Shown: one piece after another, positions 14,126 to 25,281 of the stretch | Position numbering within the stretch: the first letter of the stretch is position 1 | Layout: every line of letters begins with the position of its first letter | IMG/VR virus record: IMGVR_UViG_3300042362_000348 | Coordinates: 1-27,949 of that record | From: a virus | DNA: 27,949 nucleotides | Direction: 5' to 3' (one strand) | Position numbers and translations under genes: made by a program | The notes under the pieces: generated by a model | The model's database searches: none | What the model saw: the letters and a program-made list of their open reading frames with translations, nothing else | Told to the model about the DNA's origin: nothing

Positions 14126-14382
14126 GCCAATCCATCGACCCCTTGATCGCCTGTCCCGCCTGCCGCCGCGAGTGGCAGGACCACCCCGGCGTCGCGCATT
14201 GTTGCAAGCTCGCCACCGAGTTAGCCGCCAGCCTGCGCGACATCCTCACCTATGTCCGCCCGCCGGAATACACCCGCGACATCACCGAGCAGGAAATCTT
14301 CTTCGACGCGGTGGAAAACGCCCGCCGCCTCGTCGTCAAAGCCGGGCATTTCCAAGACTATCCCCCCGAGCCCCATCCATGA
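14122..14382 (+). CDS. Small putative zinc-binding protein (86 aa)
   Basis: ATGA overlap. The N-terminus has CPACRREW followed by HCC (residues about 11-29), enough Cys and His for a zinc site. The rest is helical (LATELAASLRDILTYV, DAVENARRLVVKAGHF). No named family. It is one of several small Cys-rich proteins in this block. Confidence 0.6.
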   Translation: MSQSIDPLIACPACRREWQDHPGVAHCCKLATELAASLRDILTYVRPPEYTRDITEQEIFFDAVENARRLVVKAGHFQDYPPEPHP

Positions 14383-14786
14383 AATTGACCACCGAGAACA
14401 CAGAGGACACGGAGAGGGAGCTTTCAACTATCCACCGCTGGATTGAGAGAAATCATCCTGACGGATTTATTGATTCGCTGTCTTTCTCTCAAAATTTAGA
14501 GCGAGTCGCGGATCGTTGGTATGAACGCCTTGAACGGGTAGAACGCGAGCGCGACAGGGGGAGGGCGCTCGCTGAAGAATTCCACCGAGATCAAGTCCGC
14601 CTACTCATGGAGCGCGACGAGGCGCGTGAAAAGATCGAACGCCAAGCCGAGCGTATTAGCAACCTATTCGAAAAAGACCAGACGCGGCTACTCATGGAGC
14701 GCGACGAGGCGAGGGAGCAAGTGGAAGAACTCACTGCCGTCATCAAAGGGCTCCGCGTGATCATGCGCCAGGAGGCCGCTAAATGA
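14379..14786 (+). CDS. Coiled-coil protein (135 aa) with internal duplication
   Basis: ATG overlaps the previous stop. The first 14 codons (MKLTTENTEDTERE) are a copy of the dispersed repeat, here read in the sense direction. The remainder is charged coiled coil with a 29-residue tandem duplication: each unit starts RLLMERDEARE, and a 24-bp stretch is identical at 14601-14624 and 14688-14711. No enzyme motif. Start choice is supported by the overlap, but a downstream start after the repeat remains possible. Function unknown; it may be structural or an adaptor. Confidence 0.6.
   Translation: MKLTTENTEDTERELSTIHRWIERNHPDGFIDSLSFSQNLERVADRWYERLERVERERDRGRALAEEFHRDQVRLLMERDEAREKIERQAERISNLFEKDQTRLLMERDEAREQVEELTAVIKGLRVIMRQEAAK
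14384..14419 (-). repeat. Dispersed CTCTGTGTC-type repeat, copy A (inside a coding region)
   Basis: Same 34-36-bp element as at 15375, 17118 and 17981 but in the opposite orientation, built from 9-bp CTCTGTGTC-like units ending in GTGGTCAAT. This copy lies at the very 5' end of the coiled-coil gene and is translated. Confidence 0.8.
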
Positions 14787-15022
14787 CCTGCCCCACCTGC
14801 CAAGCCGATACGCGGGTTCTTTCTTGCCGACCGGTAGGAGAGGAATTTGTGCGCCGCCGCCTGTGCGAGAACGGCCACCGGTTCAACACCTCCGAGACCC
14901 TGCGGCCCGGCCCGTTCCCCTGGCGACCAGCCAAAGTCAAGAAAACCCACAAACCCAAGCCCAAACCCAAGCCGCAAGCCACCCACTGGCTCGCCCGCAT
15001 CGCCGCCGCCGTTTCCGAATGA
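14783..15022 (+). CDS. NrdR-like zinc-ribbon protein (79 aa)
   Basis: Start fixed by the ATGA overlap and AGGAGG 7 nt upstream. Residues 1-40 match the NrdR zinc ribbon: MTCPTCQADTRVLSCRP, then RRRLCENGHRFNTSETL, with a Cys/Cys/Cys/His ligand set, since the second pair is C..GH rather than C..C. The ATP-cone regulatory domain of full NrdR is missing; a Lys/Pro tract follows instead. Full NrdR represses ribonucleotide reductase genes. A ribbon-only phage protein might compete for that DNA or simply be a DNA-binding module. Confidence 0.65.
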   Translation: MTCPTCQADTRVLSCRPVGEEFVRRRLCENGHRFNTSETLRPGPFPWRPAKVKKTHKPKPKPKPQATHWLARIAAAVSE

Positions 15023-15201
15023 ACTCCCTCCGCGACTACCTCACCGCCCGCCGGTTCGATCCCGACCACGCCCTCAATCTCCTGCAAGACCACGGCATCA
15101 TCTCCGACGAATGCGTCACCCCCGAAGATGTCGGCGACTCGGGAAAAGCCATCACCTGGTTAAGCCTCCGCGAATCCGAACTCCTCCCCGCCAAGCCATG
15201 A
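15019..15201 (+). CDS. Hypothetical small protein (60 aa)
   Basis: ATGA overlaps on both sides. The sequence MNSLRDYLTARRFDPDHALN begins a compact helical protein with an acidic middle (HGIISDECVTPEDVG). No family recognised. Coupling to its neighbours is the main support. Confidence 0.6.
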   Translation: MNSLRDYLTARRFDPDHALNLLQDHGIISDECVTPEDVGDSGKAITWLSLRESELLPAKP

Positions 15202-15374
15202 GCCCCGCCGCCTTTGCCATGTGTGGCTCCAAGACCCGCTACGCCCGCAAAGCCGATGCCGCCTATGCGCGGCATTATCGGCTCTACCGGGATACCCGCC
15301 GGAATAAACCCGATTTCCTCCGCGTCTACCATTGCCCCGTCTGCAACGGCTGGCACCTCACCCGCAAACCCTAA
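15198..15374 (+). CDS. Small zinc-finger-like protein (58 aa)
   Basis: ATGA overlap with the previous gene. Basic, with Cys 9 early and YHCPVCNGWHLTRKP at the end, giving a C..C..H cluster. Similar short basic proteins with a terminal HCPxCxxWHLT motif are common beside phage packaging genes, in my recollection. It is the last gene before a dispersed repeat and the large terminase. Confidence 0.65.
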   Translation: MSPAAFAMCGSKTRYARKADAAYARHYRLYRDTRRNKPDFLRVYHCPVCNGWHLTRKP

Positions 15375-15410
15375 CTCCTCCTCTGTGCCCTCTGTGTCCT
15401 CTGTGGTCAA
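15375..15410 (+). repeat. Dispersed CTCTGTGTC-type repeat, copy B, abutting the terL start
   Basis: Composed of imperfect 9-bp units (CTCTGTGCC, CTCTGTGTC, CTCTGTGGTC). It fills exactly the space between the stop of the previous gene and the ATG of the large terminase, so it is the whole local 5' leader of terL and provides no Shine-Dalgarno. Confidence 0.85.
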
Positions 15411-17114
15411 ATGATCCCGCAAACCCCCAACCCCGTCATACCCCCCATCGAGGTCGAAGGCCGCCGCCCCGATGGCAGCTTCGTCGTCCGCTACCGAGGC
15501 CAAAAGCTCGCCGCCACCGAGGCCCAACTTCTCGCCATCCACCGCGAGCGCGAGGAGCAAATCGCCCGCATGGTCGAAGACCCTTGGCGCTACGGCTGGC
15601 TGAACCCCGCCTGGCAGCGAGCCGATTCCGCCTACGACAGCCTCCGCGAGAAATTCCCCAAAGGCGTCACCGAACTCCTCATCCTCGGCGGCAACCGCTC
15701 CGGCAAGTCCCGCTACTTCGCCCGCCGCGCCATGCAGCACCTCGTCGAAAAGCCCGGCGCGAAAGTCTGGTGCCTCCAATCCACCGAAGCCGCCAGCATT
15801 CAAAACCAGCAGCCCTACTTGTGGGAGTATTTGCCGAAAGAATGGAAACCCAGCGCCTCCGGCAAACTCAAAAAAGGTGCCGTCGCCAACATCACCTACA
15901 GCCAAAAGGGCGGCTTCACCGAAAACAGCTTCGTGCTGCCGAATGGCTCCCAATGCTGGTTCAAGTTCTACTCCATGGATGTCACCTCCATCGAAGGCGC
16001 GGAGTTGAATTTCGTATGGGCCGACGAACTTGTCACCCCCGATTGGCTCGAAGCCCTGCGCTTCCGCTTGCTCACCCGCGACGGCGAACTCGGCATCGGC
16101 TTCACGCCGGTCGAAGGCTACACAACGACGGTCAAAGAATACCTCGATGGCGCGAAGACCTTGGAGGAATGCCCCGCCCCGCTCCTTCCCCGCTACCGCG
16201 ACGGCCATCTCCTCGGCGTCGAGACCGTCCCCCGCGTCCAGCAATGCACCCGCGAGAAAGCCCGCGTCGTGTATTTCCACACCGCCGACAACCCCTTCGG
16301 CAACCCCGAGGCCATGGAAACCGAACTCCGAGGCAGCAACCGCGAACGCATCCTCATGCGAGCCTACGGCGTCCCCACTAAAGCGCGGCTCTCCATGTTC
16401 CCGAAATTCCGCGAGAATGTGCATGTCGTCCCTCACGACAAAGTTCCCAAGGAGGGAACCGTCTTCCATTTCGTCGATCCGGGCGAAGGGAAAACATGGG
16501 CCATGTTGTGGATTCGATTCACCCCCGATGGCCGGTGCTGGATTTACCGCGAGTTCCCCGACCAGCTCGACTACATCGAAGGCGTCGGCTACCCCGGCCC
16601 GTGGGCCGAAGCCGATGGCAAGCTGCAAGACGGACGCCCCGGCCCCGCGCAAAAAGCCTGCGCCGGGTTTGGCTTCGAGGACTACAAGCGCCTCATCGAA
16701 GCCGCCGAGAAAGCCGACTCCGCCGAGCCCGCCGAGCGTTGGATGGATTCCCGCTACGGCAACACCCCCACCATGACGCATGAAGGCGTGCGCACCCTCA
16801 TCGAGCAATGCAGCGAGCGCATCGGCCTCGACTTCCGCGCCACCAGCGGCCAAGCCATCGTCGAAGGCGTCACCCTCATCAACGACTGGCTCGCCTACAA
16901 CGACGAAGCCCCCGTGGATGCCCTCAACTCCCCCCGGCTCTACATCTCCGAGCGTTGCCAAAACCTCATCTACGCCCTCAAGACCTGGACCGGCAGCGAC
17001 GGAAAACGCGGTGCAACAAAAGACTGGATTGATATTTGTCGCTATATTGCGCTCTCCGGCGTCGAATACGAAGACCCCGCCTCCCTCCGCACCCGAGGAG
17101 GCGGCTGCTACTAA
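15411..17114 (+). CDS. terL: Terminase large subunit
   Basis: 567 aa. The packaging ATPase has Walker A GGNRSGKS (residues 93-100) and a Walker B region LNFVWADE near 198-205. The C-terminal nuclease half begins near residue 350 with FVDPGEGKTWAMLW, whose Asp is a likely metal ligand; further acidic residues are in WMDSRYG near 444. The protein cuts and pumps DNA into the prohead through the portal. The gene begins directly at the end of repeat copy B and stops just before copy C, so it sits as a cassette between direct repeats. The TerS candidate is far upstream at 8905. Confidence 0.93.
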   Translation: MIPQTPNPVIPPIEVEGRRPDGSFVVRYRGQKLAATEAQLLAIHREREEQIARMVEDPWRYGWLNPAWQRADSAYDSLREKFPKGVTELLILGGNRSGKSRYFARRAMQHLVEKPGAKVWCLQSTEAASIQNQQPYLWEYLPKEWKPSASGKLKKGAVANITYSQKGGFTENSFVLPNGSQCWFKFYSMDVTSIEGAELNFVWADELVTPDWLEALRFRLLTRDGELGIGFTPVEGYTTTVKEYLDGAKTLEECPAPLLPRYRDGHLLGVETVPRVQQCTREKARVVYFHTADNPFGNPEAMETELRGSNRERILMRAYGVPTKARLSMFPKFRENVHVVPHDKVPKEGTVFHFVDPGEGKTWAMLWIRFTPDGRCWIYREFPDQLDYIEGVGYPGPWAEADGKLQDGRPGPAQKACAGFGFEDYKRLIEAAEKADSAEPAERWMDSRYGNTPTMTHEGVRTLIEQCSERIGLDFRATSGQAIVEGVTLINDWLAYNDEAPVDALNSPRLYISERCQNLIYALKTWTGSDGKRGATKDWIDICRYIALSGVEYEDPASLRTRGGGCY

Positions 17115-17117
17115 ATC

Positions 17118-17152
17118 CTCCCTCCGTGTTCTCTGTGTCCTCTGTGGTCAAT
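17118..17152 (+). repeat. Dispersed CTCTGTGTC-type repeat, copy C, just after terL
   Basis: Same orientation as copy B and starting 3 bp after the terL stop. Identical to copies B and D across the CTCTGTGTCCTCTGTGG core. It lies in a 75-bp gap before the next small HTH gene. Confidence 0.85.
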
Positions 17153-17189
17153 CCCTCCCTTGACTCCCTCTCATAAAATCAAAGCATCC

Positions 17190-17342
17190 ATGAAACTACT
17201 CCGCCGCCGCGATGTCATGGCCCGATTGGGCGTTAGCGCAAAGCAAATCACCAAACTCATCGACTCCGGCATTCTCCGCCCCATTCGCCGCGAAGGAGCC
17301 CGCGCCTGGTATCGCGCCGCCGACCTCGAAAAACTCGCATGA
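17190..17342 (+). CDS. Short helix-turn-helix protein (50 aa)
   Basis: MKLLRRRDVMARLGVSAKQI opens a minimal MerR/excisionase-like helix-turn-helix, followed by a wing (ILRPIRREGARAWYRAADLE). The stop overlaps the next ATG (ATGA). It is a second candidate for excisionase or a late regulator, placed between terminase and capsid genes in a three-gene cassette bounded by repeat copies C and D. Confidence 0.65.
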   Translation: MKLLRRRDVMARLGVSAKQITKLIDSGILRPIRREGARAWYRAADLEKLA

Positions 17343-17593
17343 GCACCAAACGCACCGACAACCACGGCAGCCTGAGCCGCAACAAGAAAAAGGAAAAGGA
17401 AACGCACCCCACGCACAAAGGCTCCTGCACCATCGAAGGCCGCGAGTATTGGATCAGCGCGTATGTGAACGAAAGCCGCGACAACGGCGAAAAGTATTTC
17501 AAGCTCTACTTCGAGCCGAAGAAGCCCCGCGAGGATTCCGCCGCCGAGCCGCATTCCGCCTCGCTCTCCGAGTCTCCCGACATTCCCTTTTGA
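17339..17593 (+). CDS. Putative OB-fold/ssDNA-binding-like small protein (84 aa)
   Basis: A basic N-terminus (SRNKKKEKETHP) precedes a short beta-rich module (GSCTIEGREYWISAYVNES, then EKYFKLYFEPKK). This layout recalls small phage proteins annotated as ssDNA-binding-like, but similarity is from memory. The tail is acidic and Ser-rich, ending in DIPF, similar in spirit to SSB acidic tips. Overlaps both neighbours. Confidence 0.5.
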   Translation: MSTKRTDNHGSLSRNKKKEKETHPTHKGSCTIEGREYWISAYVNESRDNGEKYFKLYFEPKKPREDSAAEPHSASLSESPDIPF

Positions 17594-17844
17594 TGAGCGC
17601 CGAAGACTTGCAAGCCGCCTGGTGCGTGCCGCCCGAGGAACTCTGGTTCCGCAGCGTCATCGCAAAAATAACCGACGCCATCGAGGACGCCGCCGAGATC
17701 ACCTGCATGCCGCAAACCGCACAGAACCCCGGCCTCCTCGCCCACAGCGCCGGTGGCCTCGAAGCCCTCCGCACCCTCCGCGAAGAAATCGAGCGCACCC
17801 GCTCCGAGGCTTTCCAAAACAAATTTCGACAGGCAGACGCATAA
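17593..17844 (+). CDS. Hypothetical helical protein (83 aa)
   Basis: TGATG overlap with the previous gene. Begins MSAEDLQAAWCVPPEELWFR and is helical throughout, with acidic IEDAAEITCMP and a C-terminal EALRTLREEIERTRSEAF helix. No family recognised. Last gene before the longest gene-free stretch. Confidence 0.65.
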   Translation: MSAEDLQAAWCVPPEELWFRSVIAKITDAIEDAAEITCMPQTAQNPGLLAHSAGGLEALRTLREEIERTRSEAFQNKFRQADA

Positions 17845-17980
17845 CACGGATGAGCGGTTAGGTTAGGGATTTCTAGCCACCGCCACATCGAGGTCGGGAG
17901 GCGTCCGTATGGGCGACCGCAACCTTGGAAACCCGGCGTTTGAAAAGGGAGCGCGCACCCGTCCCTGTCTTCTTCCCCCC

Positions 17981-18014
17981 CCTCTCCGTGTCCTCTGTGT
18001 CCTCTGTGGTTAAT
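17981..18014 (+). repeat. Dispersed CTCTGTGTC-type repeat, copy D
   Basis: Same orientation as copies B and C, with a C-rich lead-in and ending in GTGGTTAAT. It lies in the gap between the small-gene cassette and the capsid module. Confidence 0.85.
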
Positions 18015-18030
18015 CTTTTCTGCAATCTTT

Positions 18031-24435: not shown

Positions 24436-25281
24436 ATGCCAAATACCCTTCGCATCAAACGCCGCCTCTCCGGTAACGCCGGAGCCCCGTCCAGCCTCGC
24501 CATCGGCGAACTCGCCTACAACAAGGTTGACGACAAACTCTACATCGGACTCGACTCCGGTATCGTCGCCCTCGCCGGTGAAGGCCACTTCGCCACGAAC
24601 TCCGACCTCGCCTCCGAAGTCTCCACGCTGAACTCCAGCATCAGCTCGGAAACCTCCCGCGCCACCGCAGCGGAAGCCGCCCTCGGCGTTCGCATTGACA
24701 ATGTTCTCTCGAACACAACGCAGGGCTCGCTTGATTCGTTGACGGAGGTTGTGCAAGCCTTCGAGGCCGCCGACAGCAACCTCAACGGAGCCATCACCTC
24801 CCTCGCCAACAGCGCCTCCAGCGCCCTGACCGCCGAGGTCAACCGCGCCACCGCAGCCGAAGGCGTCATCGCCGCCGGTCTCGCTCAAGAGCTTCTTGAC
24901 CGTGCCGCCGCCGACACCACCCTCCAGGGCAATATCAACACCGTTGCAGGCAATCTCTCGACCGAGACATCGGCCCGCCAAGCGGCTGACACCACCCTCC
25001 AGAACAATATCGACAGCGAGGCCAGCACCCGTGCTTCGGCCATCAGCGCCCTCGATAGCCGAGTGGTCGCGCTCGAAGGTGCCTCCGCCGACGCCCGCCT
25101 CGACGAGGTGGAGTCCGACATTGCTGCCATCGAATCCGCCGCGACAGCCTTGACTGGCCGCGTCTCCAGCTTGGAGACCACCGCAGCCGGACTCGGCACC
25201 ATGTCCACGCAGAATGCCAACAATGTCGCCATCACCGGCGGCACCATCGAAGGCATCGAGCTCGACGGCGGCAGCTTCTAA
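24436..25281 (+). CDS. Tail fibre protein with trimeric coiled-coil shaft
   Basis: 281 aa. The N-terminus (MPNTLRIKRRLSGNAGAPSS then LAIGELAYNKVDDKLYIG) is the virion-attachment motif found in many fibre proteins. The shaft consists of recurring Ala/Glu-rich units such as SSETSRATAAEAALGVRIDN, NRATAAEGVIA and STETSARQAADTTLQNNIDS, typical of trimeric coiled-coil fibres. It ends ITGGTIEGIELDGGSF, a common fibre tip. The A/C-rich leader has no Shine-Dalgarno. Confidence 0.8.
   Translation: MPNTLRIKRRLSGNAGAPSSLAIGELAYNKVDDKLYIGLDSGIVALAGEGHFATNSDLASEVSTLNSSISSETSRATAAEAALGVRIDNVLSNTTQGSLDSLTEVVQAFEAADSNLNGAITSLANSASSALTAEVNRATAAEGVIAAGLAQELLDRAAADTTLQGNINTVAGNLSTETSARQAADTTLQNNIDSEASTRASAISALDSRVVALEGASADARLDEVESDIAAIESAATALTGRVSSLETTAAGLGTMSTQNANNVAITGGTIEGIELDGGSF

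Follow-up and report, generated by a model that had tools for sequence, protein, structure and literature searches.

A dispersed repeat of 9-bp units at accessory-gene junctions around the terminase gene of a phage group

The discontinuities that separate a group of related phages concentrate at copies of a short repeat that is also abundant in the likely host family of these phages. The reading favoured here, with a probability of about 0.6, is that a dispersed host repeat was captured by the phages and acts as a border and as a patch of homology for the exchange of accessory genes, further crossovers falling within terL, the gene of the large terminase subunit. The window, that is, the whole stretch of DNA that was analysed, is a virus record of 27,949 bases, and it contains four copies of the repeat (A to D), each of 34–37 bp and made of 9-bp units.

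Repeat copies and genes in the window

The consensus of the repeat is CTCYGTGYY CTCYGTGTY CTCYGTGGT YAA, and chance recurrence is ruled out by its 18-nt core, which, with up to 3 mismatches allowed, has 7 matches in the window and 0 in 100 dinucleotide shuffles. A literature search for the repeat sequence gave no relevant match. The earlier note described copies B, C and D in one orientation and copy A inverted, and all four are present as described: A at 14384–14420 (minus strand, 83–91% complementary to the other three), B at 15375–15410, C at 17117–17153 and D at 17979–18015 (all plus strand). It also placed them exactly at module borders; B and C do adjoin terL, but A is not intergenic and D is set apart from its neighbouring genes. 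Copy B abuts the ATG of terL at 15411, its left neighbour depending on the phage and its right neighbour being terL (15411–17114, plus strand; phrog_2, E=9e-20; Terminase_6N, 2.5e-9), a backbone gene, and copy C follows the terL stop (17114). Copy A lies within a gene (14379–14786, plus strand) whose body varies among close relatives, and copy D stands 3' of three small genes, 135 bp past the stop of the third and about 205 bp ahead of the next start. These three genes (17190–17844, plus strand) encode an HTH/MerR/excisionase-like protein, which is the first after terL, an ssDNA-binding-like protein and a protein of 83 aa; they form a syntenic backbone that is also found in relatives without the repeat.

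Other features were observed in the window. Positions 14783–15022 encode a small protein whose zinc ribbon is NrdR-like (PF22811, E=1.2e-6). An open frame of 641 aa antisense to terL (15036–16961, minus strand) exceeds terL in length and is probably an effect of composition. Positions 17160–17179, 5' of the HTH gene, hold a TTGACA-like and a TATAAT-like hexamer (TTGACACCCTCACCCTATAAT in relatives), a pair conserved at the corresponding position past terL in most relatives and whose gap of only about 9 bases is short for a sigma-70 promoter. Further downstream, 24766–25104 contains a family of imperfect internal repeats inside a coding region.

Breakpoints among relatives

Relatives of terL number about 80 in viral contigs and 2 in bacterial MAGs; all of their contigs are assembled metagenome data. 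The ends of pairwise alignments are about 12 times commoner at repeats than at random positions. A fairer control is given by the other gene borders that these phages have in this region, and repeat borders break more often than they do, with a mean excess of 0.347 (35 of 44 phages; 0 of 2000 permutations of the labels), in tests that are not fully independent, the phages compared being kin. The breakpoints that the earlier note looked for at the repeats are therefore concentrated there.

Breakage at the repeats is polar. Plus-strand copies break on the cargo side in 55% of cases and on the backbone side in 10%, and minus-strand copies are the mirror image (76% vs 17%), the rates elsewhere being 20–23% at other gene borders and about 0 in the middle of genes. 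In both orientations the GGTYAA (TTRACC) end adjoins the conserved backbone, with the CTCC end towards the variable cargo. At site B, at least five unrelated classes of left neighbour meet the same repeat and terL, each class recurs in at least three contigs, and the similarity between relatives begins with the first bases of the repeat.

Homologous recombination at conserved boundary sequences is one of two models of mosaicism, and it is an open question whether mosaics arise by homology targeted at boundary sequences or by random joining followed by selection (PMC3233612). Like phage boundary (linker) sequences, which are short conserved sequences between genes at mosaic breakpoints, the present repeat is conserved at breakpoints between unrelated modules; unlike them, it belongs to a dispersed family abundant in the likely host lineage, is made of 9-bp units, is polar and can be coding.

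The repeat is probably not confined to the phages that share this terL: an exact 22-mer of it occurs in 69 viral stretches, and of 68 that were examined 55 share no long DNA match with the terL loci, although some of these stretches may be other parts of related genomes. Conversely, many relatives lack the repeat at orthologous genes, including terL, and variable junctions are also seen at repeat-less borders (L011, L014, L022, L083).

Accessory genes as the exchanged units

The earlier note regarded the repeats as recombination linkers for swapping the terminase and the small-gene cassettes. The order terL-HTH-g17339-g17593-g18221 is kept in five relatives in which no repeat was detected (L153, L066, L041, L020, L061). 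This is an outcome that the earlier note itself named as refuting, and it leads to the rejection of the terminase and the HTH cassette as the units that are swapped. The phages differ instead in the accessory genes that adjoin the CTCC end of each copy, and for these genes the junction data are best read in terms of linkers.

Several sites illustrate these differences. Ahead of copy C, two relatives (L017, L019) carry a cytosine-methyltransferase-like gene, its motifs judged by eye, and two others (L016, L018) a gene of 73 aa; repeat-less versions and versions with an extra gene both occur at this site among the relatives, and L083 has a gene with no repeat. To the left of copy D, L004 has a DDE transposase and a methyltransferase-like gene (2.4 kb in all, the methyltransferase motif again judged by eye). 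This pair is located 0.7–3.1 kb past terL, between the 83-aa gene and copy D. The window and L004 are 99% identical up to the inner end of copy A, beyond which identity is low over the body of the gene and agreement returns from the next gene onwards, so that the difference amounts to one gene.

In integron gene cassettes with attC sites, too, a repeat of constant orientation comes after an accessory gene, and the present accessory genes resemble them in this respect. The difference is that cargo was not seen to move between equivalent sites: relocation to another repeat site was found in 0 of 323 pairs, which indicates that the repeats are not interchangeable docking sites.

Location of the crossovers

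The identity of the 5' part of terL tracks the upstream gene, falls off along roughly 600 bp and is more even beyond. Given this co-variation, many crossovers lie inside terL, and together with the junctions that vary where no repeat is present it speaks against breakage that is confined to the repeat. Within one copy the units are mostly uniform, being all of the TCT or all of the TCC type. In L053 and L048 this type is at odds with that of the phages whose flanking sequence is closest, a pattern that recombination in short tracts of the repeat would produce, and in L033 the units within the repeat are mixed. Some copies thus look converted independently of both flanks, in line with the recombination at repeats proposed before, and crossovers in terL and short tracts in the repeat both seem to happen.

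These data bear on the possibility, which we consider real although clearly the lesser one, that the repeats are passive passengers, exchange taking place by homologous recombination in the conserved flanks and the repeat being simply the last shared piece before the variable gene. The gradual decay along terL is what such passengers would show, as are the permanence of the repeat on the backbone side and the exchanges at the repeat-less borders of L011, L014 and L022; however, passengers account poorly for repeat borders that break more than repeat-less borders of the same genomes, and for the discordant repeat types of L053 and L048.

Copies in the likely host lineage

The two MAGs that bear terL, one labelled Verrucomicrobia and the other Chthoniobacter flavus, both belong to a repeat-rich bacterial family. 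With up to 2 mismatches, the repeat is found in 18 of 26 genomes of this family, in up to 51 copies and with 0 control matches, in agreement with the earlier suggestion of a dispersed bacterial repeat. Over the phylum, an exact 21-mer occurs in 17 of 289 genomes, and 39 of 195 have the repeat when up to 2 mismatches are allowed. This abundance suggests that the transfer went from host to phage.

The arrangement of the copies differs between host and phage. Close pairs of repeats in host DNA are all inverted (22 of 22) with TTRACC outward, and phage copies are mostly single. In G120:C156, an inverted pair of the phage-type repeat brackets a GxxExxY gene; in eight genomes inverted short-unit repeats generally surround the GxxExxY genes (17 of 20 score at least 20, vs 2% of mismatched pairs), and the same is true of 11 of 19 four-helix-bundle genes. 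The GxxExxY (L197–L216) and TIGR02436 four-helix-bundle (L217–L236) loci are Verrucomicrobiota genes bracketed by inverted tandem-unit repeats, whose units vary by gene yet are similar in style to the phage repeat; at L198 the bracket is of the phage repeat family itself.

Such pairs raise the idea, unlikely in our judgement, that the repeats derive, as its ends or its scars, from a small MITE-like or REPIN-like mobile element with terminal inverted repeats, which would carry accessory genes as cargo and insert near gene ends in host and phage. The uniform inversion of the host pairs agrees with it, and so do an outer end that is fixed next to an inner end variable in unit number and the bracketing of GxxExxY genes, in G120:C156 by the phage-type repeat. 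Nevertheless, inspection by eye revealed no target-site duplication in the flanks of host pairs, the interiors of these pairs are mostly unrelated (of 36 pairs compared for a shared, MITE-type interior, 2 reached the listing score) and most phage copies stand singly. REPINs are dispersed inverted pairs of a short repeat, extragenic and with a less conserved spacer (PMC3116915). The present repeat is like them in its inverted doublets in host DNA, and unlike them in its 9-bp tandem units, its single phage copies and its lack of association with Y1/RAYT genes: in a search for a cognate Y1 transposase flanked by the repeat, the repeat was near 1 of 20 Y1 loci and not beside the other 19, and two repeat-rich genomes (G231, G313) had no Y1 match. 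Membership of the REPIN/RAYT class is ruled out by these Y1 loci.

The repeat as coding sequence

A 9-bp unit corresponds to three codons and can be read in frame without a stop on either strand, and for this reason a junction at the repeat can be coding. Copy A supplies codons 3–13 of the gene at 14379–14786, whose plus-strand reading begins M K LTTENTEDTE (MKLTTENTEDTE) and whose ATG at 14379 overlaps the stop of the preceding gene. When GTG and TTG starts are admitted, ORFs of viruses start within or just before the repeat 111 times in the LTTEDTE frame vs 13 times in the other open frame, and at host loci ORFs start at only 9 of 52 copies, 6 of them in the LTTEDTE frame. With ATG as the only start there are 50 in-frame fusions, 47 of which fall in six genuine protein families; a seventh group (L035-like) proved to be a false match under the strict ATG criteria, and the six families stand. 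Genes of the DUF551-like type exist both in a plain form and with the repeat as an N-terminal extension, and in one case the copy is shorter by exactly one unit (three residues). At site B, the open frame through the repeat reads SVPSVSSVVK in most phages and its stop overlaps the start of terL. No gene runs through copy B in the window, where the gene at 15198–15374 stops ahead of the repeat.

A sequence so often placed at gene starts could be a signal for translation or transcription maintained by selection, comparable to the Start-Associated Sequences (SAS/ESAS) of Cluster K mycobacteriophages, which are 13 bp long, lie 5' of start codons and are essentially absent from the hosts (PMC3203893). 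The present repeat, too, is short and asymmetric, and like these sequences it recurs at the starts of many genes in a group of phages with one orientation prevailing; it is unlike them in its abundance in the host family and its frequent location within coding sequence, and its coding fusions and host abundance set it outside the SAS/ESAS class. The copies at gene starts and ends and the bias of viral ORF starts towards one frame are consistent with a signal, a function that is nonetheless very improbable, given that the orthologues of many relatives, terL among them, have no repeat and that copies are found in either orientation as well as within coding sequence. An essential phage signal is ruled out by the relatives that lack the repeat at the same genes.

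Assemblers usually finish with k-mers longer than 36 bp, and the joining of unrelated phages at a short repeat during metagenome assembly, which could be suspected from contigs that are all metagenomic and break at repeats, is hardly credible for a repeat of 36 bp when the main junction classes at site B each appear in at least three contigs with different metagenome numbers and reading frames stay open across many junctions.

Proposed mechanism and implications

According to the favoured explanation, capture of a host repeat that serves accessory-gene exchange, a dispersed repeat of 9-bp units from Verrucomicrobiota would have been taken up by the phage group and kept at the borders of accessory slots. 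Each copy would be polar, with its TTRACC/GGTYAA end attached to a backbone gene and the opposite end to a variable gene. Because phages share the repeat and the adjoining backbone gene at a given site, homologous recombination, in the repeat or in the adjoining gene, could replace the accessory gene and leave the repeat as the visible junction. This junction could be coding: in one orientation the repeat would give, by a start codon, the N-terminal LTTEDTEDTE, and in the other, before terL, often the end of the upstream gene.

A bolder and tentative extension is that a dispersed bacterial repeat, its 9-bp units preserving the frame, serves phages as a portable adaptor for coding, whose inner end takes new genes and which gives them an N-terminal peptide beside a start codon or a C-terminal tail, and that it belongs to a wider, little-described class of inverted short-unit repeats bracketing small cassettes of bacterial chromosomes, such as those of the GxxExxY and four-helix-bundle genes.

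With its many relatives, a recognisable boundary sequence, sites that are polymorphic for the repeat and a likely host family that bears it, this phage group allows both models of mosaicism to be tested directly. The in-frame N-terminal fusions suggest, in addition, one route from a dispersed repeat to protein sequence.
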